Of a stretch of 54,651 nt of DNA, positions 707 to 39,368 are shown in pieces. Both the position numbers and the translations under genes were made by a program. The stretch is from contig JACRIR010000197.1 of NCBI GenBank assembly GCA_016215705.1, positions 1 through 54,651 on the forward strand, given 5' to 3'. Position 1 is the first letter of the stretch; every line of letters begins with the position of its first letter. This DNA is from Candidatus Poribacteria bacterium (lineage in GTDB: Bacteria > Abyssobacteria > SURF-5). The notes beneath the pieces were generated by a model. It saw only the letters and a program-made list of their open reading frames with translations. It was not told where the DNA came from and ran no database searches.

Positions 707-735
707 TTGACAGAGCGCTGGTCATATGATACAAT
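707..735 (+). promoter_or_regulatory. Sigma70-type promoter of the TetR gene
   Basis: TTGACA at 707-712 is followed after 17 bases by TACAAT at 730-735, a near-consensus promoter for the gene starting at 775. The -10 overlaps the left edge of the operator-like palindrome at 733-760, which is the usual arrangement for an autorepressing TetR protein. Confidence 0.7.
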
Positions 736-760
736 TTGGACTAACCGGTTAGTCCTAATT
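733..760. promoter_or_regulatory. Putative TetR operator (28-bp dyad)
   Basis: A perfect 18-bp palindrome, ggactaaccggttagtcc, lies at 738-755. Complementarity continues on both sides (aatt at 733-736 with aatt at 757-760) with a single mismatched pair. It overlaps the -10 and the expected transcription start of the TetR gene 15 bases downstream, so autorepression is the simplest reading. Confidence 0.65.
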
Positions 761-774
761 CAGCGAGGAGCCCA

Positions 775-1359
775 ATGGACAGCAAACAAAAAATCGTATC
801 CGAAGCCGCTAAACTCATTCATACCAAGGGATTCAATAACACCAGCGTGCAGGATATCCTCGACGCGACCGCTGTGACCAAGAGCAATTTTTACTATCAT
901 TTTGAGAGCAAAGAACAGCTCGGATTCGAGGTGCTTTCGCAGAGAATGCAATGGTTCTATGACAACATGATCGAGCCTCCTTCGCAGGCCGAGCTCGGAC
1001 CGGCAGAACAAGTGGACGCCTTTCTGGATAGAATCCTCGCTCTCGGCATCTCGCCCCTGGGCGAACTCGGCTGCCCATTCGGCAACCTTGCGCAAGAGAT
1101 GAGCGCTATCCATGAACCTCTGCGCCAGGCCCTGAGCGAATTCTTCAAAAACGGCGCTGAAAGACTGGAACAACGCTTTGAAGAGGGCAAGAAGGCGGGT
1201 GTGTTCAAACAGGACTTACCCTCGCGGCAGTTTGCCGAGTTCGTGCTCGCGCAAATCCAAGGGTCGTTCCTGCTGCGCAAAACTCATAAAGACCCTCATA
1301 TAATGGAACGCAACATCGAGATGCTGCGCAAATTGATCGAAGCTTACAAGCAACACTAG
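775..1359 (+). CDS. TetR/AcrR-family transcriptional regulator
   Basis: A 194-residue cytoplasmic repressor of the TetR family. The N-terminal helix-turn-helix spans about residues 20-48 and includes the TSVQDILDATAVTKSNFYYHF-type stretch. The C-terminal ligand domain contains a GCPFGNL motif near residue 100, which recalls the LmrA/YxaF-like TetR subgroup. The ATG start has a good Shine-Dalgarno sequence (gaggag at 765-770). A consensus promoter and an 18-bp perfect dyad immediately upstream suggest self-repression, and the two Fe-S proteins downstream in the same orientation are candidate targets. The stop codon (TAG at 1357-1359) lies inside the terminal repeat of an inserted element, so the original C-terminus may have been different. 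The ligand is unknown. Confidence 0.9.
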   Translation: MDSKQKIVSEAAKLIHTKGFNNTSVQDILDATAVTKSNFYYHFESKEQLGFEVLSQRMQWFYDNMIEPPSQAELGPAEQVDAFLDRILALGISPLGELGCPFGNLAQEMSAIHEPLRQALSEFFKNGAERLEQRFEEGKKAGVFKQDLPSRQFAEFVLAQIQGSFLLRKTHKDPHIMERNIEMLRKLIEAYKQH

Positions 1360-1464
1360 TGTCATGTCACACTTGAGCCTGCAAGTGTGAGCGTATGGTT
1401 TTGTAGGGGCACGGCGCGCCGTGCCCCTACGGGAACCGACAAAAGAGAGTTGACAGAACACTAG
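1356..1464 (+). mobile_element. MITE-like element, CTAG-ended family, copy 1
   Basis: A 109-bp non-coding element. Its left end, CTAGTGTCATGTCA (1356-1369), matches the reverse complement of its right end (1451-1464) at 12 of 14 positions. Both ends carry CTAG, which may be a 4-bp target duplication or part of the repeat. A perfect 28-bp palindrome sits in the centre (1403-1430). Two further copies lie in inverse orientation at 20922-21040 and 21037-21147. No transposase is encoded, so mobilisation would be in trans. The left end supplies the TAG stop of the TetR gene. Confidence 0.7.
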
Positions 1465-1609: not shown

Positions 1610-2698
1610 ATGAGTAAGGACGTTTATCAAAAGTTGGCCGAACATCTCGACGCGATGCCGCAAGGCTTCCCAAAAACCGCGAGCGGGGTTGAGATAAAAA
1701 TCCTGAAGAAGGTTTTCGACGAGGCGGAGGCCGACGTAGCCGCGCAGATGAAGCTTGTGCCGGAGGGTCCCGAGCAAGTGGCCGAACGCCTGGGCCGAAA
1801 CCCTAAAGAAATGGCCGAATTCCTTGAGAAGATGGCGTCGAAGGGCCAGATAATGGGCATGGGCCCGCGTGAGGGCCGCATGTACGCTGCGTTCCCGTTC
1901 CTCGTCGGCATTCACGAATTCCAGCTCGCGCGGATGGATAAGGAATACGTCGAACTGTTCGAGCATTATCTCGAGGAGGCGTTGGCCGAACAGTTGGGAA
2001 AAACACTGCCGGCCCAGGTGCGCGTGTATCCGGTGGAACAAGCGATCCCGAACGAGCTCACGATCCTTCCGTTCGAGAAAGTGTCAAACATGATTGAGAA
2101 GGCGCAATCCTGGGCGGTCTCCGACTGCATTTGTCGCAAAGAGATGAAGATGATCGGCAAGGGCTGCAACAAGACAATGAACAATTGCATCGCCTTCTCC
2201 GACGACCCGTCCGGATTCGACATCGAGTACCGAGGCGCAAGAAAGGCCACGAAGCAGGAGGCGCTCGACCTGCTGAAAAAGGCTGAGGAAGAAGGCCTGG
2301 TGCACAATTCGTGGAACATACAGGACAATCACGTATTTGTGTGCAACTGCTGCACGTGCTGCTGCGCAATCCTTCGCAGCGTGAAGATGGCCAAATCGCC
2401 CCATTTTCTGGCTAAATCGAATTACTTCGCGAAGATCGAGTCCGACACATGTGTCGCATGCGGCGTGTGCGCCGACGAGAGATGTCCGATGGGCGCCATC
2501 GAGGCGCGTGGCGAATACTATGAGGTGAATCCGGATCGCTGTATCGGCTGCGGTGTGTGCGTGGTCACGTGCCCGAGCGGCGCGCTTTCGCTCCAGCGTA
2601 AGTCTGAGGACCAGATCGACATTCCGCCGGATAACATAGTCGCGTGGACGATGGAGAAGGCGCAGAAGACCGGCCGCACGATGGAAGGGCTCATCTGA
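1610..2698 (+). CDS. Winged-helix, cysteine-rich 4Fe-4S protein (paralogue A)
   Basis: A 362-residue soluble protein in three parts. Residues about 30-85 look like a winged-helix domain (EQVAERLGRNPKEMAEFL). A middle region carries C173, C175, C186 and C193 and then an unusual CNCCTCCC cluster at 245-252. The C-terminus is a 2[4Fe-4S] ferredoxin with C281/284/287/292 and C311/314/317/321; the first cluster motif has one extra residue before its fourth cysteine. The start has a strong aaggagg site at 1598-1604. The next gene is a paralogue with the same layout. An electron-transfer or redox-sensing role is inferred from the cysteines and the DNA-binding-like fold. The partner is unknown; I recognise the ferredoxin part with confidence but not the biochemical role. 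Confidence 0.85.
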   Translation: MSKDVYQKLAEHLDAMPQGFPKTASGVEIKILKKVFDEAEADVAAQMKLVPEGPEQVAERLGRNPKEMAEFLEKMASKGQIMGMGPREGRMYAAFPFLVGIHEFQLARMDKEYVELFEHYLEEALAEQLGKTLPAQVRVYPVEQAIPNELTILPFEKVSNMIEKAQSWAVSDCICRKEMKMIGKGCNKTMNNCIAFSDDPSGFDIEYRGARKATKQEALDLLKKAEEEGLVHNSWNIQDNHVFVCNCCTCCCAILRSVKMAKSPHFLAKSNYFAKIESDTCVACGVCADERCPMGAIEARGEYYEVNPDRCIGCGVCVVTCPSGALSLQRKSEDQIDIPPDNIVAWTMEKAQKTGRTMEGLI

Positions 2699-2742
2699 TT
2701 CTTGATTTTGGATTCGTGCTCCGATCTCTTAAGGAGAACATC

Positions 2743-3867
2743 ATGCAGAAATCACCATTCAGAAAACTTGCTGAGCGATTCGACATGAACTTGACGGGTA
2801 TGCCCAAGAAGGATGGCGATTTTTCGCCCTCCTTCCTTCAGTACCTCGAGATTCTTTTTACGCCGGAAGAAGCCGAGGTTGCCTCGTTCTTGTCGGCTGA
2901 GCCAAAGCGTTTGACCGCCGAGGAAGTGGCCGAAAAGGCGGGACGCCCCGTCGGAGACGTCGAACAAGTCCTCGGTCGCCTTGTCGAGAAGAATGCGATC
3001 CTCGGATTCGGCGGCCAGTACATGCTGCCAATGACCCCACTGCTTCTCAATATTCACCAATTCAGGACGGCCGTTGATCAAGATGCCCTGAAAGCCAGCC
3101 AACTGTATCAGGATTTCTACATAAAGGACGGCTTCTATCGGTTCTATGAATCGTCCGCGCAGGGGACGCCCGTGCGCCGCGCAGTGCCTGTCGAGCAATC
3201 GATCTCCGACGGCCAGCATATATTATCGCATGAAGAGGTCAAGCTCTTCCTCGATGAAGCCAATATGGGGGCGATGGCGCTCGTGCCGTGCCCCTGTCGC
3301 AACCGCACAGAGAAGATGGGAAGACGCGAATGCAAAGACAAGCACGGTGTGGAGTCGTGCCTGTTTCTCGGGATGCCTGCGGTACTCATGGTCGGGCGTG
3401 GCGAAGGCAAACAGATTTCTCGCGAGGAAGCGGAAAGCTATGTCAAGGAGATGCGAGAACTGGGCCTCGTCATGATGACCGACAACGCAGCCGTCATGAA
3501 AGACGGCGTCGTCTGCTTCTGCTGCGGCTGTTGCTGTTCAATCACGCGGGGCCTCACTCGATGGAGCAATTCCCGGGCGTTTGCGCGCTCCAATTTCGTC
3601 GCGCGCGTCGGCGACGATTGCGCGCTATGCGGAACGTGTGTTGACCGCTGCATGTTCAAGGCTATATCCGTGCCCGACGGCGCCGGCAAGTTGCAGATCG
3701 ATGAGAGCAGATGCATGGGCTGCGGCGCCTGCACCGTCACGTGTCCGACCGAAGCGCTCCGGCTCGAACGCCTCGAACGAGAACCCATCTATGCGACGCA
3801 GTCGGAACTGCGCTCGAAGATAGCCGTCGAGAACGAGGCCGCAGGCCAGAAACGACGCCTGCAATAA
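2743..3867 (+). CDS. Winged-helix, cysteine-rich 4Fe-4S protein (paralogue B)
   Basis: A 374-residue paralogue of the upstream gene. The predicted winged helix lies around residues 55-90. The middle cysteines are C183, C185, C197 and C206, followed by CFCCGCCC at 258-265. Two standard ferredoxin motifs follow at C293/296/299/303 and C324/327/330/334. I place the start at the ATG at 2743, preceded by aaggag at 2731-2736; an in-frame upstream extension to 2644 would overlap gene A and has no homology to it. The 44-bp gap and shared orientation suggest co-transcription with gene A. Conservation of the middle cysteine pattern in both copies argues for a third metal site besides the two ferredoxin clusters. 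The function is not known to me. Confidence 0.85.
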   Translation: MQKSPFRKLAERFDMNLTGMPKKDGDFSPSFLQYLEILFTPEEAEVASFLSAEPKRLTAEEVAEKAGRPVGDVEQVLGRLVEKNAILGFGGQYMLPMTPLLLNIHQFRTAVDQDALKASQLYQDFYIKDGFYRFYESSAQGTPVRRAVPVEQSISDGQHILSHEEVKLFLDEANMGAMALVPCPCRNRTEKMGRRECKDKHGVESCLFLGMPAVLMVGRGEGKQISREEAESYVKEMRELGLVMMTDNAAVMKDGVVCFCCGCCCSITRGLTRWSNSRAFARSNFVARVGDDCALCGTCVDRCMFKAISVPDGAGKLQIDESRCMGCGACTVTCPTEALRLERLEREPIYATQSELRSKIAVENEAAGQKRRLQ

Positions 3868-3894: not shown

Positions 3895-4024
3895 GAGACT
3901 GTCCCATAATTGGCGAACCAGGATGGGATTCTGTAGGTGCGAATCCATTCGCACAATATTGTCGGGTTCTTTCCGCTTCGCGCCCGCGAATAAATTCGCG
4001 CCTACAGAATTACGGGACAGTCTC
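3895..4024. mobile_element. 130-bp inverted-repeat element (family A, best copy)
   Basis: The outer arms gagactgtccc (3895-3905) and gggacagtctc (4014-4024) are perfectly complementary. Inner arms at 3928-3944 and 3994-4010 (attctgtaggtgcgaat against attcgcgcctacagaat) pair with one mismatch over 17 bases. There is no coding capacity. Related copies are at 39290-39368 (good), 38305-38395 (degenerate) and about 19064-19125 (partial). This is consistent with a non-autonomous mobile element. Confidence 0.65.
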
Positions 4025-6025: not shown

Positions 6026-7987
6026 GTGTGTGGGATATTCGGAGTCGTAGCCGGTGAAGGCTGTGTTCTCCCGAAACAATCTCTGACGGACATCCTTGAG
6101 TTTCTCTTCCTGCGGTCCGAGTTTCGAGGGAAAGAAGCCAGCGGGCTCGCTTTTTACGCCGGCGGCGAAGTCGACGTCCACAAATGCTCGATGCGGGCCG
6201 CCAAAATGCTGCGCAACCGCGAATTCCAGAGCTTCCTTGATAGTTGTCTGAAGAGCGTCTATTCGGACGACGCCGCTCCTGCCAGACCATTTGCATCTCT
6301 CGGACATTCACGGCTGGTGACCAACGGCATAGAAATACTCGACCGAAATAATCAGCCGGTGCTAGCAGATGCAAGTCTTGGCGTTCACAACGGCATTGTC
6401 GTGAACGTGGACGAACTCTGGCAACACCACCCTGAGTTGGTTCGAAAGGCCGAAGTCGATACGGAGATAATCTACTCGCTCATTGACAAATACCGGTCTC
6501 TGTATGGGTCTGAAGAAGACGCCCTTCGGGCTGCTTTCGCAGAAATTGCCGGTTCCGCATCGATTGCCTACTTCCATGAGGGGGCAGAAGAACTGTGCCT
6601 GGCCACGAATACCGGCTCTCTCTACATATGCCGCAATGTCGGCGCCGGGGTCTTCTTGTTTGCTTCCGAAGGGTATTCTCTTCGGCTTCTCGCAAAACAA
6701 GAATTCATCAAAGAACTCGGCGCATCTGCGGAAATAAGAAATGTTCACGCGGGGCACGGAGTCGCCGTCGATATTCGATCCTGCGTTGACAGAGGATTCT
6801 CACTGCTAAGACCATTGCCGGGTCTGAAGAAGCCTGCCGCTGAAAGCAAGCCCGGCGGCAGATCATTCGGGGCAAAGGTGCGCGCCCGCGAACGCGTCAA
6901 CCTGCGCCGATGCACCCGCTGCGTGCTTCCCGAAACGTTTCCTTTCATTGAGTTCGACGATAAGGGCGTGTGTAGTGTCTGCAATCAATACGAACGGAAG
7001 ACGCTGTATGGGCGACAGGCGATCGAACAGGCCGTCGAGAAGTACCGGAGCAAGAATGGCGAGCCCGATTGCCTGGTAGCCTTCAGCGGCGGTCGCGACA
7101 GCGCATACGGGCTTCACTACATAAAGAAAGAACTGGGGATGAACCCGATCGCGTTCACATACGATTGGGGATTGGTAAGCGACCTTGCGCGGCGTAACCA
7201 AGCCAGAATGTGCGCAAAGCTGGGGGTGGAGCACATCATTCGCTCACCGGACGTTCGCGCGAAAAGGCGGTACGTGAGACAGAACTTGAACGCCTGGTTG
7301 CATCGACCGGACCTGGGAATGATTCCCCTGCTCTCCGCGGGCGACAAACAGTTCTATCACTATGGAAGGCAGCTACTCAAAGAGACAGGCATAAGACTCA
7401 CATTCTTCTGCGCCGATGATATGGAGCGAACCGAGTTCAAGACCGGATTCTGCGGGGTCCGCGAAAACCAGCACAGGATGCGCCTGAGCGCCTATTCCTG
7501 GAAAAACAAGCTGGCTTTTCTTTTTTACTATATGAAGCAATACACGCTGAATCCACGCTACTTGAACTCCTCGCTTCTGGACACGCTGCTTTCCTACTAC
7601 TCGACTTACGTTGCGAAGGATGATTTCCTCTACCTCTACCATTATATCCCGTGGGATGAGAAGACCATTGTGACGACACTGATGGAGGAGTACGGATGGG
7701 AGATAGACCCGGAGAGCAAGAGCACCTGGCGCATCGACGACGCCTACATTCCATTCCACAACTACATCTACTACACTGTCGCCGGTTTCTCGGAGCACGA
7801 CACTTTCAGGAGCAACCAGATACGCGCCGGGGTAATCACGCGCGAAGAAGCCCTGGCGATAGTGGAACGCGACAATCAACCACGAATCGGAGCATTGCGG
7901 GACTATGCAAGCCGCATCGGCATCAACCTCGAGGAGGTTATGCTTGTAGTGAATTCGATTCCGAAACTATACGAAAAACGCTCATAG
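6026..7987 (+). CDS. Fused class II glutaminase / PP-loop N-acetyl sugar amidotransferase
   Basis: A 653-residue two-domain protein. Residues 1-250 are an Ntn-type glutamine amidotransferase: the GTG start places Cys2 at the mature N-terminus, and R96 (GHSRL), N122-G123 (HNG) and D145 match GlmS/PurF-type active-site positions. Residues 290-653 form a WbpG/PseA-like N-acetyl sugar amidotransferase with a four-cysteine zinc site (C296, C299, C316, C319) and an ATP PP-loop, SGGRDS, at 354-359. Known relatives convert an acetamido sugar to an acetamidino sugar using ammonia, usually from a separate HisH-like glutaminase. Here the ammonia source appears fused and of the other glutaminase class. 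A purine-rich site (gaggggg) precedes the GTG. Cytoplasmic; probably tailors a sugar for the adjacent glycan genes. Confidence 0.85.
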   Translation: MCGIFGVVAGEGCVLPKQSLTDILEFLFLRSEFRGKEASGLAFYAGGEVDVHKCSMRAAKMLRNREFQSFLDSCLKSVYSDDAAPARPFASLGHSRLVTNGIEILDRNNQPVLADASLGVHNGIVVNVDELWQHHPELVRKAEVDTEIIYSLIDKYRSLYGSEEDALRAAFAEIAGSASIAYFHEGAEELCLATNTGSLYICRNVGAGVFLFASEGYSLRLLAKQEFIKELGASAEIRNVHAGHGVAVDIRSCVDRGFSLLRPLPGLKKPAAESKPGGRSFGAKVRARERVNLRRCTRCVLPETFPFIEFDDKGVCSVCNQYERKTLYGRQAIEQAVEKYRSKNGEPDCLVAFSGGRDSAYGLHYIKKELGMNPIAFTYDWGLVSDLARRNQARMCAKLGVEHIIRSPDVRAKRRYVRQNLNAWLHRPDLGMIPLLSAGDKQFYHYGRQLLKETGIRLTFFCADDMERTEFKTGFCGVRENQHRMRLSAYSWKNKLAFLFYYMKQYTLNPRYLNSSLLDTLLSYYSTYVAKDDFLYLYHYIPWDEKTIVTTLMEEYGWEIDPESKSTWRIDDAYIPFHNYIYYTVAGFSEHDTFRSNQIRAGVITREEALAIVERDNQPRIGALRDYASRIGINLEEVMLVVNSIPKLYEKRS

Positions 7988-8056: not shown

Positions 8057-9067
8057 ATGCGAAAGCTCGTGTCAATCGTGGTCCCGATTTACAATGAAGA
8101 ACGAGTGCTGCCTGAACTGATAAGCCGAATGTCCAAAACGGTCAGCGCATTGATCGGCAGATACGACTTCGAGATACTGTTCGTGGATGACGGCAGCTCC
8201 GACGGAAGCGTGGAGGTTGCCAGGTCTTTGCTCGCACAAGAAGAACGACTGCGAATCCTCGAATTGCGCCGGAACTACGGCCAGACCGCAGCGCTTCAGG
8301 CAGGGATAGATGAATCGCACGGTGAATACGTCATCACCATGGATGGAGACCTGCAACACTTCCCCGAAGAGATACCATCTTTTCTGGCCAAATTGGAAGA
8401 GGGATACGACGTGGTCTGCGGCTGGCGGCATGACCGCAAGGAGAATCTCCTTCGCAGGTGGCCTTCTCAGGCAGCAAATGCAATGATTCGACGGCTCACG
8501 GGACTGACGATTCGCGACGTTGGAACTACCTATCGCGCATATCGGATGGTAATCCTGAAAGATATACGCTTGCTGGGAGAGAACCATCGTTTCATCCCGG
8601 TGTTCGCATATATAGCCGGCGCCAGGATCGGTGAGATCAAGATTCAGAACATAGTGCGGCCTGTGGGAGAATCGAGCTATGGATTGACCAGATCGCTCAA
8701 TGTCTTTCTTGATATTCTGTTCGTTTACTTCTACACTAAATACTTCGACCGTCCGATTCGCATTTTCGGCAAGATTTCGCTGCTCCTGTTCGCTGTAGCC
8801 ATGATTATTGCCGGCACTCTCATCCTGGGCTCAATTATTATGGACCGTCCCATTCCTGGGCGCAGCGGATGGGCCAGCATGACTTTCTTCCTTACGGCCC
8901 AAGCCATTCAAATCCTGCTTATCGGAATACTGAGCGAGGTATTGGCGCGGCTGTTTTATTCCTCGAAAGAGCGTATGCCTTACCACATCAGGAATGAGTG
9001 GAACCGAAACAGCGTATCTTCACCGGAGTTGGCCCGAAACAGCGATAATGACACGGCCTCCAGTTGA
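8057..9067 (+). CDS. Polyprenyl-phosphate glycosyltransferase, GT2 (DPM1/GtrB/ArnC type)
   Basis: A 336-residue protein with an N-terminal GT-A domain beginning VSIVVPIYNEE, an early DDGSSDGS motif and the metal-binding MDGDLQH motif near residue 100. Two C-terminal transmembrane helices lie at about residues 235-300. This layout is typical of enzymes that load a sugar from a nucleotide donor onto polyprenyl phosphate at the cytoplasmic face. The product would be a donor for a GT-C enzyme such as the GT39 protein encoded upstream. I chose the ATG at 8057 because gagggg lies seven bases before it and the preceding in-frame codons carry no family sequence. Its end overlaps the start of the flippase gene. 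Confidence 0.85.
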   Translation: MRKLVSIVVPIYNEERVLPELISRMSKTVSALIGRYDFEILFVDDGSSDGSVEVARSLLAQEERLRILELRRNYGQTAALQAGIDESHGEYVITMDGDLQHFPEEIPSFLAKLEEGYDVVCGWRHDRKENLLRRWPSQAANAMIRRLTGLTIRDVGTTYRAYRMVILKDIRLLGENHRFIPVFAYIAGARIGEIKIQNIVRPVGESSYGLTRSLNVFLDILFVYFYTKYFDRPIRIFGKISLLLFAVAMIIAGTLILGSIIMDRPIPGRSGWASMTFFLTAQAIQILLIGILSEVLARLFYSSKERMPYHIRNEWNRNSVSSPELARNSDNDTASS

Positions 9068-10385
9068 CATCGACACGCCCTCCGACCGCGGGACCGTGCA
9101 GACGGGTCTCCCTAAAGAACGAGCCTTCCGGACCCATCTTCTGTGGAATTACTTGTCTTTCGCGGTCGTCGGCGGCTGCGGGTTTCTAATACAATTCATG
9201 ATTGCCGCATTTATGGATGCCGCCGCGCTGGGAGTCTTCAATCAGGTGTACGCCTGCTTCGTCGTAATGTCGCAACTGGCGGTCGCAGGCGTGCATCATT
9301 CCGTCTTGAAGTCAGTGGCCGAATATCCGGATGAATCCTCTGAATGGACTGACGCTGCCGTGAGCGGCATCCTTTTGGCGGGAATACTCGGGTTTCTCGT
9401 GGCCGCGGCAGCCCTTTCCGCCAGTTCTCTCGCCGGCGCCGCGATGGACAGCGCCGAAGTGGGAATCGCATTATCATGGGCCGCCCCCGGCCTGTTGTTC
9501 CTGGCCATTAACAAAGTCTGCATGGCCGTTCTGAATGGCAGACGCATGATGATTGCGTTCGCCGCTATGCAAGCCATACGGCCATTGTTGCTGCTCGGTT
9601 TTGTGGCCACTGCCTGCTTCTTGAAATGGCCGGTGGCGTTACTGGGAGCGGCATTCACATTCTCGGAAGTGACCCTATGTGTCGTTCTGATAGCATACGT
9701 GCTTTGGCGCTTGCCGACACATTCCGCGCGGAATATCAAGCATTGGCTGCGCGCTCATGCTTCTTTCGGATTCCGCGGAGCGCTCAGCGGGCTCCTTATG
9801 GAAGTAAACGTTCGCGTCGATGTTCTCATTCTCGGCCTGTTCGTGTCAGACGCAAAGGTGGGGTTATATAGTTTCGCCGCTGTTTTCATGGAAGGCTTGT
9901 TCAATCTGCTGCAGGTTGTCCGGACCAACATGAATCCGATTCTTGTTCGCTTGGTTATGGAGAAACGGATCGGGGATTTGCACAATATCGTGAAGCGGAC
10001 CCACAGGAGAGTCTATCCGGCGACAACTGCCCTTGTTCTGGCGCTTCTAGGGGTCTACCCGCTCATCGTCAATTCTCTTCTGCGCAACGCAGAGTTCATG
10101 AAGAGCTGGCCGATACTCGCCATTCTGATGTTTGGCGTGGTGATATATTCCGGGTTTGTGCCTTTCGACTTCCTTCTTCTCGTCGGCGGCAAGCCGGGAA
10201 GTCACACGTTGCTGATGCTTGTTGAGGTGGGCACAAATGTATGCCTCTGTTTTGTCTTTGTGCGACTCTGGGGAATATGGGGAGCCGCAGCGGCAATGTC
10301 GGCCTCCGCAGCGCTGGGAGCGCTCTACTTGAATATGATTGTGAATTGGCGGCTGCGTTTCCCTCTGCTTCCCGCACTTCGCTGA
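9048..10385 (+). CDS. Wzx-like polysaccharide flippase (MOP superfamily)
   Basis: A 445-residue very hydrophobic protein with about 12 predicted transmembrane segments starting near residue 40, as in MOP-family Wzx/RfbX flippases that move lipid-linked saccharides across the inner membrane. The start is uncertain: ATG 9048 gives a 20-bp overlap with the GT2 gene, and an upstream in-frame start at 8994 would lengthen the N-terminus by 18 residues. Neither has a clear Shine-Dalgarno sequence. A flippase in the same locus as a Wzm/Wzt ABC exporter means two alternative export modes are encoded within 10 kb. The substrate is unknown. Confidence 0.75.
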   Translation: MTRPPVDIDTPSDRGTVQTGLPKERAFRTHLLWNYLSFAVVGGCGFLIQFMIAAFMDAAALGVFNQVYACFVVMSQLAVAGVHHSVLKSVAEYPDESSEWTDAAVSGILLAGILGFLVAAAALSASSLAGAAMDSAEVGIALSWAAPGLLFLAINKVCMAVLNGRRMMIAFAAMQAIRPLLLLGFVATACFLKWPVALLGAAFTFSEVTLCVVLIAYVLWRLPTHSARNIKHWLRAHASFGFRGALSGLLMEVNVRVDVLILGLFVSDAKVGLYSFAAVFMEGLFNLLQVVRTNMNPILVRLVMEKRIGDLHNIVKRTHRRVYPATTALVLALLGVYPLIVNSLLRNAEFMKSWPILAILMFGVVIYSGFVPFDFLLLVGGKPGSHTLLMLVEVGTNVCLCFVFVRLWGIWGAAAAMSASAALGALYLNMIVNWRLRFPLLPALR

Positions 10386-10468
10386 GCTATCGACCACTGT
10401 ATCAACAACGTGCTCGCGCATAGCCATTTGACGCGACGGGATTCGTCGGTTAGGGAGGCCGGTGACAA

Positions 10469-11335
10469 TTGGAATCATTCACGCTTGAACATTGTCGTAT
10501 CTGCCGAAGCAATCGATTGCAGCATAAGTTCGATGTGAGAGAGAATCCCATTGTGTTCTGCGCGGAGTGCGGCTTTGTGCAGCTCGGCAGGCATGCGAAC
10601 GAGGCACAGATCAGGCGTGAGTATTCGCGCGCTTATTTCAAAGATGCAAAATATCTGCTTGATGCGGCAGCCCGGCGCGAGCAGAAGCGAAGGCTCAGTT
10701 TCATGAAGGAATGTGGCGTCTCTTCGGGGGCAACCGTATTGGACGTGGGATGTGCAACCGGCGATTTTGTCCTGATGGCAAAGGAGACGTATTCGGTTTG
10801 GGGCACGGATATTTCAGAAGATGCGCTCCAAATTGCTCGCGATAGAAATCCGGAGATTGCCGAGCGATTCGTCTGCATGAGCGGACGGAATAGCGGGGTC
10901 CCGAACCAGCATTTCGACGCCATTACGATGTGGGACGTAGTCGAGCATCTGGATGATCCCGTCGCATTGCTGACTCAGATGGCCGGCAAATTGAAACGGG
11001 GAGGCATGCTGTTTCTTTCGAGCCCGAATATCGGTACTTTTATTGGAAGAGTAATGGGCAAGCGATGGGCTTTCATGACACCGCCCGAGCATATCGGCTA
11101 TTTTTCCAGGGAGACCATGAGAAAGCTCCTCGGCGTTTGTGGATTGCGCGACCTGAAGTGGAAGACCAAAGGAAAATGGATCAGTGCGGGGTTTCTTGTT
11201 TACAAGGCAGGGCGGGTATTCCCGGAAATGATTCCACCACGGTTCGTAGCTTCCACTCTCAAGGTTGGAATTGGGAGATTCCCACTCTACATTCCCACCG
11301 GTGACATTCAATATGCTGCGGCAGTGATTCAGTGA
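10469..11335 (+). CDS. SAM-dependent methyltransferase with N-terminal zinc ribbon
   Basis: A 288-residue class I methyltransferase. An N-terminal CxxC...CxxC zinc ribbon (C9, C12, C31, C34) is followed by SAM motif I, LDVGCATGDF, at 91-100 and a WDVVEHL acidic-loop motif. This arrangement is common among sugar or lipid methyltransferases in surface-glycan clusters. Translation begins at a TTG (10469) preceded by gggagg about ten bases upstream; no in-frame ATG precedes the zinc ribbon. It is the last plus-strand gene of the left glycan locus and converges with another methyltransferase 28 bp away. The acceptor is not predictable. Confidence 0.8.
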   Translation: MESFTLEHCRICRSNRLQHKFDVRENPIVFCAECGFVQLGRHANEAQIRREYSRAYFKDAKYLLDAAARREQKRRLSFMKECGVSSGATVLDVGCATGDFVLMAKETYSVWGTDISEDALQIARDRNPEIAERFVCMSGRNSGVPNQHFDAITMWDVVEHLDDPVALLTQMAGKLKRGGMLFLSSPNIGTFIGRVMGKRWAFMTPPEHIGYFSRETMRKLLGVCGLRDLKWKTKGKWISAGFLVYKAGRVFPEMIPPRFVASTLKVGIGRFPLYIPTGDIQYAAAVIQ

Positions 11336-39289: not shown

Positions 39290-39368
39290 TGTAGGCGCGA
39301 ATCTGTTCGCACAGTATCTTCAGCCCTTTTCTGCGCCGCGCCTGCGAATGAATCGTCGCCTGCGCAAT
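39290..39368. repeat. Family A element, truncated copy
   Basis: tgtaggcgcgaatctgttcgcacagtatcttcagcccttttctgcgccgcgcctgcgaat... aligns over about 80 bases with 3932-4010 and lacks the outer gagactgtccc arms. It fills the gap between two glycosyltransferase genes. Confidence 0.6.

Follow-up and report, generated by a model that had tools for sequence, protein, structure and literature searches.

A conserved tetR operon of Abyssubacteria encodes two cysteine-rich ferredoxin proteins that are probable relatives of the putative isoprene reductase IsrA

What is the function of two neighbouring genes whose products each carry 18 cysteines, most of them in a middle domain that matches no catalogued family? 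The genes, P1 and P2, lie in a 54,651-nucleotide stretch of DNA (the window; contig JACRIR010000197.1) from the 5.47-Mb genome of a deep-subsurface member of Abyssubacteria (G000; G, C and L numbers are our handles for genomes, contigs and loci), for which SURF_17 (G001) and SURF_5 (G002) serve as relatives (PMC6121073). An earlier note had proposed a redox protein or an Fe-S regulator with a further metal centre, and the analysis below weighs these possibilities against homology, gene neighbourhood and structure models.

The features of the locus are collected in Table 1. P2 starts at the ATG at 2743, which has an AAGGAG ribosome site ahead of it, and not at the GTG at 2644, leaving 44 bp between the two genes. 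The 18 cysteines that the earlier note had placed in each paralogue were counted in both translations (P1: 173, 175, 186, 193, 245, 247, 248, 250, 251, 252, 281, 284, 287, 292, 311, 314, 317 and 321; P2: 183, 185, 197, 206, 258, 260, 261, 263, 264, 265, 293, 296, 299, 303, 324, 327, 330 and 334), and the spacings that it described, CxC-x10/11-C-x6/8-C and CxCCxCCC, are present in the two proteins. The CxCCxCCC motif is not a product of chance, given that P1 and P2 are its sole carriers among the 278 ORFs of at least 60 aa in the window and that it arose in 0 of 200,000 shuffles of P1; a literature text search for the motif returned no match. P1 has orthologues in SURF_17 and SURF_5 at 75–81% identity, and the P2 clade takes in Desulfobacterota orthologues. 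P2 is a diverged paralogue of P1, and since the two share only 28% identity and stand far apart in the family tree, they form an old paralogue pair rather than a recent tandem copy.

Table 1 Coordinates of the features discussed (window positions unless a contig is given)
Feature	Location	Strand	Description
tetR promoter, sigma-70-type	707..735	+	TTGACA-17-TACAAT, 11/12 matches
Probable TetR operator	738..755		perfect 18-bp palindrome GGACTAACCGGTTAGTCC, directly 3' of the tetR promoter
TetR-family repressor gene	775..1359	+	TetR_N and TetR_C_13, Pfam E 8.6e-13 and 8.2e-16
GC-rich inverted repeat	1403..1430		GTAGGGGCACGGCGCGCCGTGCCCCTAC, between tetR and P1
P1	1610..2698	+	362 aa; ORF read from the window
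P1 domains			winged-helix-like 1-133; middle 8(+2)-Cys alpha/beta 134-272; 2[4Fe-4S] ferredoxin 273-330
P1 first Cys arm, CxC-x10-C-x6-C	2126..2188	+	residues 173-193; invariant or 99.5% conserved, 185 homologues
P1 CxCCxCCC arm	2342..2365	+	residues 245-252; C245, C247, C248 and C252 invariant
P2	2743..3867	+	374 aa; domain order as in P1
P2 first Cys arm, CxC-x11-C-x8-C	3289..3360	+	residues 183-206
P2 CxCCxCCC arm	3514..3537	+	residues 258-265
Family gene with hypB, G000:C216 (L093)	HypB 9989-10651; family gene 8903-9970	both minus	
HypA of G000	C216:29549-29884		

Conservation was scored in 185 full-length homologues that are less than 90% identical to one another. C173, C175, C193, C245, C247, C248, C252 and the eight ferredoxin cysteines are conserved in 100% of these proteins and C186 in 99.5%, whereas C251 is kept in 93% and C250 in 90%, with Asp in the remainder; Asn236 reaches 96%. 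Hence, the number of obligatory middle cysteines is eight and not ten, and the full obligatory set is divided evenly, with eight cysteines each, between the uncatalogued middle domain and the 2[4Fe-4S] ferredoxin. The 18 conserved cysteines of the earlier note are thus reduced to 16 (near-)invariant ones, with C250 and C251 facultative. Its ten-cysteine site for a further metal centre has to be narrowed to eight obligatory residues, but a metal centre in the middle domain is supported, both by these invariant cysteines and by the grouping of six cysteines in a published model of the IsrA module (PMC10134865). Wing-less relatives and one fusion have a smaller middle set, and CxC...C and CxC-x4-C are kept in nearly all of them.

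The AlphaFold2 model of P1, built from a 58-sequence alignment, has a mean pLDDT of 93.3 and a pTM of 0.90. Residues 5–94 are modelled as helices and a wing-like hairpin. The middle domain (~134–272) is alpha/beta and carries the middle cysteines, with C173 and C175 between a strand and a helix and C245–C252 at the end of a later strand that runs into a helix. A winged-helix-like N-terminal fold, as suggested earlier, is plausible from the helix-helix-wing pattern (mean pLDDT 93) and a sub-threshold TrmB match in P2 (21.0 bits, below the 25.6 cut-off; none in P1). The C-terminal domain is a 2[4Fe-4S] ferredoxin, with two CxxCxxCxxxC-type motifs, a ferredoxin fold (VIA Z 10.8 and rmsd 1.2 over 55 residues between P1 and the clostridial ferredoxin 1fca) and Pfam matches to Fer4 in P1 (1.1e-10) and Fer4_7 in P2 (3.8e-8). 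Scans of Pfam and NCBIfam with the whole proteins and with the middle domain alone returned generic Fer4 matches only and none for the middle domain, and a PDB sequence search with a middle-domain profile returned only spurious pentatricopeptide-repeat matches through one helix. With the whole P1 model, the Foldseek and VIA matches were filled by ferredoxins; the middle domain modelled alone (pLDDT 81) matched no solved fold (best Foldseek E 0.21, best VIA Z 2.4), which is no proof of a new fold.

A relationship is found through IsrA of Acetobacterium wieringae, a putative isoprene reductase from clade 9 of the GltD/NfnB-like oxidoreductases whose activity was deduced from proteomics and not from purified enzyme (PMC10134865). 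The first ~270 aa of IsrA have no domain match and align with a 350-aa ‘4Fe-4S ferredoxin’ of the isr operon; in a ColabFold model, six cysteines, including Cys180/182 and Cys254/256, meet where a predicted substrate tunnel ends, and nickel has been proposed for its ‘cluster V’ (PMC10134865). A model built from stand-alone proteins only matches the N-terminal modules of two fusions, from Subdoligranulum (L131, E 1.8e-48) and Desulfobacterota (L255, E 7.1e-61), in which the module is joined to a GltD/NfnB-like FAD/NAD(P)H oxidoreductase. We term these fusions IsrA-type by their architecture and hypA/hypB neighbours, both being located between hypB and hypA, and IsrA itself was matched by architecture and published numbering. 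Counted from first cysteine to first cysteine, the CxC arms are 72 residues apart in P1, 75 in P2 and 74 in both fusions, and those of IsrA, Cys180/182 and Cys254/256, are also 74 residues apart (PMC10134865). The P1/P2 family is almost certainly homologous to the N-terminal module of the IsrA-type oxidoreductases, and the best reading of P1 and P2 is that they are free-standing Isr-family proteins, a kind described in one proteogenomic study (PMC10134865). Whether the middle cysteines come together is thereby answered for a homologue, from the published IsrA model.

The likeness to IsrA covers an N-terminal module of ~300 aa with a winged-helix-like part, the two CxC arms and then ferredoxin-type cysteines, together with family ties to hypA/hypB and sometimes TetR. 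However, IsrA continues into a ~550-aa FAD/NAD(P)H NfnB-like part, whereas P1 and P2 end after a ferredoxin that is a complete 2[4Fe-4S] unit, and they are not beside hypA/hypB, although a stand-alone paralogue in their own genome (C216) is. IsrA has six middle cysteines compared with eight obligatory and two facultative ones in P1 and P2, so the metal site of the family, with its 8–10 middle cysteines, need not be the same cluster. The isr-operon ferredoxin (VUZ27135.1, ENOG4105DQ9), which we compare with P1 and P2 by its description, is likewise stand-alone, can be aligned to the N-terminal part of IsrA, has a ferredoxin domain at its end and is induced by isoprene along with IsrA, but it has a single reported [4Fe-4S] ferredoxin motif and its authors saw no association with hypA/hypB (PMC10134865). 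The same authors liken the Cys6 site of IsrA to double-cubane [8Fe-9S] proteins and to the A-cluster of acetyl-CoA synthase (PMC10134865). That likeness lies in low-potential cluster chemistry, and our PDB-profile, Foldseek and VIA searches gave no sequence or fold match to either. Fusion partners other than the NfnB-like part were not found in the family. As a separate observation, the Subdoligranulum fusion (L131:5857-8634, and L294 on the Subdoligranulum ‘plasmid’ OY725877.1) has a short-chain dehydrogenase and a GntR regulator nearby; it is a putative C=C reductase from a bacterium of the gut type.

For IsrA homologues, hypA and hypB genes are found in the operon in 73% and 56% of cases, respectively (PMC10134865). 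New here is that stand-alone family members are also located in hypA/hypB operons. All three Abyssubacteria have the order hypB–family gene–hypA with gaps of ~10–80 bp (~40 and 20 bp in G000), and in each the two flanking genes are the only hypB and hypA of the genome. The order hypA–hypB–family gene, again with a stand-alone member, is found in two Desulfobacterota (G046 and G061) on distant tree branches. In total, a family gene adjoins 7 of 30 hypB loci, in five independent lineages, compared with ~0.2 expected by our own estimate from ~8 copies per 4 Mb (Poisson ~1e-6 for five), and the hyp-linked stand-alone members come from widely separated tree branches. This linkage suggests that the shared N-terminal module, and not the NADH/flavoprotein part, is the nickel client. 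The hypD gene is present in G000 and G002, so their HypA and HypB may serve a [NiFe]-hydrogenase; no hypD was detected in SURF_17 (91% complete), and in G040 a second hypB beside hypD stands apart from the hypB with the fusion. For P1 and P2 themselves, the linkage leaves nickel a proposal: they perhaps bind it.

Upstream of P1, the palindrome GGACTAACCGGTTAGTCC has no second match in the window when as many as 3 mismatches are allowed (chance expectation 0.01). SURF_17 and SURF_5 have the same promoter–operator layout ahead of their tetR orthologues, with degenerate operators. The repressor, placed in the TetR family by its TetR_N and TetR_C domains and the palindromic operator, is weakly AcuR-like (NCBIfam AcuR 77.7 bits, below the 247 cut-off). 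In two other genera, orthologues of the repressor gene immediately precede those of P1, and the order tetR–P1–P2 is kept in all three Abyssubacteria genera, with an additional P1 copy in SURF_17. The conservation of promoter, operator and operon in three genera points to TetR as the likely regulator of the operon, in agreement with the control of the pair suggested earlier. Given that no copy of the palindrome precedes P1, we infer that control of P1 and P2 would be by read-through across a 250-bp gap, which holds the inverted repeat GTAGGGGCACGGCGCGCCGTGCCCCTAC; this repeat has no intrinsic-terminator score. Two further elements of the window are recorded here. A palindromic intergenic element, GTAGGTGCGAAT-NN-ATTCGCAC, occurs in three places (3933-4005 and 39291-39312; 0 expected), and a resembling element follows tetR in SURF_5 (L108, ~7440). 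Downstream of P1/P2, a surface-polysaccharide-like cluster includes a 653-aa fusion (6026-7987) of GlmS/PurF-like glutaminase and WbuX-like N-acetyl sugar amidotransferase domains.

A contig search of genomes gave 222 relatives, from which 79 loci were kept, mostly from Chloroflexota, Asgard and Bathyarchaeota, Ignavibacteria and deltaproteobacterial lineages, a sample biased toward the peptide patterns of the query. At E <= 1e-40, 42 of the 79 sampled Desulfobacterota genomes carry the family, as do 4 of the 81 from Chloroflexota. The distribution is patchy and the copy number strongly expanded. Dispersed copies number 13 in the genome of the window, ~30 in G009 and 25 or more in G086, an expansion that fits substrate diversification. 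Family members also occur as tandem arrays, three to five genes long, in which some members lack the winged helix (L199, G051:C364; G086:C27:25819-29190; G009:C415:7166-10153). Neighbours were counted with ORFs taken as the longest non-overlapping ones, which makes the counts approximate for GC-rich genomes. Short-chain dehydrogenases are enriched beside family genes (10/130 compared with <=2/130 further away; p 0.002 to 0.03). TetR was rejected as a typical family partner (4/130 adjoining, 5/130 further away), and Thorarchaeota synteny so dominated a clustering of neighbours across the first 79 loci that we set it aside. Among single neighbours, a DUF116 protein (Pfam match for the L088 copy) adjoins one paralogue in two Abyssubacteria genera (L088:11781-12404, L120:10251-10835). 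An MtaA/CmuA-like methyltransferase and an MtaC-like corrinoid protein are found near a Desulfobacterota P2 orthologue (L207:1472-3413), and a corrinoid protein also adjoins a family paralogue in L094.

The family may hydrogenate C=C bonds or carry electrons. The explanation that we favour, with about even confidence, is that the locus is a TetR-controlled operon for reductases that are fed by ferredoxin and hold an Fe-S, perhaps Ni-Fe-S, site. Low-potential electrons would enter at the 2[4Fe-4S] ferredoxin of the C-terminus and move on to a cluster that the two CxC arms hold in the middle domain, at the site of ‘cluster V’ in IsrA. This Fe-S or perhaps Ni-Fe-S centre, loaded by HypA/HypB, would reduce an unsaturated substrate, plausibly at a C=C bond in a compound of terpenoid, lipid or acyl type, and TetR would derepress when the substrate or an electrophile is present. 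For P1 and P2 we infer the cluster type, nickel, catalysis, substrate and TetR ligand from their relatives and gene context. A redox role, as the earlier note had it, is supported. The enrichment of short-chain dehydrogenases and the orthologous tetR–P1–P2 loci in three genera count in favour of a reductase; against it count the location of P1 and P2 away from hypA/hypB, their lack of an FAD/NAD(P)H part and the position of P1–P2 just upstream of a Mo/W oxidoreductase in SURF_5, which fits an electron carrier equally.

It is possible, though short of probable, that P1 and P2 are such carriers and non-catalytic: their 16 cysteines would hold four [4Fe-4S] clusters, the winged helix would dock, and the proteins would supply electrons to, or take them from, a cytosolic Mo/W-bisPGD oxidoreductase, or an AOR, HdrD/GlcD-like or TfrAB-like enzyme, replacing the usual FdhB/DmsB-type subunit. 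Sixteen invariant cysteines are exactly enough for four clusters, and the gene order in SURF_5 is tetR–P1–P2–Mo/W oxidoreductase–third family member. In the window's own genome and SURF_17, family genes flank the orthologous oxidoreductase, but these are not P1–P2. The P2 orthologue that is nearest outside the phylum, found in G086 (Desulfobacterota), belongs to a tandem pair, and at a distance of 1.4 kb lies a close relative of the oxidoreductase (37% identical to the one in G000), with a QueG/RdhA-like Fe-S protein between the oxidoreductase and the P2 orthologue. There is one more case of a family gene with this oxidoreductase in G009, and other family genes adjoin AOR/Fe-ADH (L024), HdrD/GlcD-like (L114) and TfrAB-like (L093) genes. 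However, a family gene lies within 1.5 kb at only 4 of 30 loci of the Mo/W oxidoreductase family, which we therefore rejected as a universal partner and regard as a local one, and the hypB–family gene–hypA operons are left unexplained by a carrier. Ferredoxin-type carriers are also seldom kept as 25–30 paralogues, which we count against this role. The number of obligatory cysteines and the gene position in Abyssubacteria recall the four-[4Fe-4S] subunits of the FdhB/DmsB type, but P1 and P2 are ferredoxin-like only C-terminally, the other eight cysteines being in the unrelated uncatalogued domain; the two tandem 2[4Fe-4S] units typical of FdhB/DmsB are not seen, as Fer4 families match the C-terminal part only. 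The Mo/W-bisPGD oxidoreductase family itself (L088:6972-9143, L207:11282-13519) has a conserved QE(Y/H)T roughly where formate dehydrogenases have their Cys/Sec ligand and is often located beside a QueG/reductive-dehalogenase-like protein (L267, L268).

That the middle domain is a carrier or scaffold of Ni or Fe-S for other enzymes, with HypA/HypB as partners, is improbable. The hypB–family gene–hypA operons and the many thiols in succession would fit such a role, but a chaperone would not be expected to carry a 2[4Fe-4S] ferredoxin or to be fused to an FAD/NAD(P)H enzyme, the copy number is very high and no consistent client enzyme adjoins the family genes. The Fe-S or oxygen-responsive regulator of the earlier note is not supported: although the winged-helix-like N-terminus, its weak IclR/MarR/TrmB matches and the many dispersed paralogues, some of which stand alone, would suit redox-sensing transcriptional regulators, this is improbable and DNA binding unlikely, given that the putative recognition helix 64–79 is not basic (mean net charge -0.4, positive in 31% of 185 proteins; whole winged-helix segment, -0.2 in 185 homologues) and its exposed face is not conserved, that wing-less relatives retain the cysteine arms and ferredoxin, that an NAD(P)H-FAD oxidoreductase forms the second part of some other members, and that the operon already has its own TetR, a regulator no more frequent beside family genes than further away.

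A broader reading can be framed, which we consider rather doubtful at present: the module would be both nickel client and catalytic unit of metalloenzymes, of Ni-Fe-S or double-cluster type, that hydrogenate C=C bonds anaerobically and make up a very large class, so far unrecognised, in bacteria and Asgard/Bathy-archaea, with IsrA as one fused branch and P1/P2 as a TetR-induced two-subunit version fed by ferredoxin. The family is large and almost unstudied, with up to ~30 copies per genome in anaerobes, and its middle domain, which has no Pfam or solved-structure match, is nevertheless present in 10–30 copies in many anaerobes and also in Asgard archaea. The hypB–family gene–hypA operons make it directly testable whether the nickel/Fe-S site of the Isr family sits in a small soluble module. 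Such a protein, without the 550-aa flavoprotein part, would be far easier than IsrA to subject to metal analysis, spectroscopy and crystallography, and its study could show how isoprene, terpenes or lipids are hydrogenated by anaerobes at C=C bonds that are not activated.
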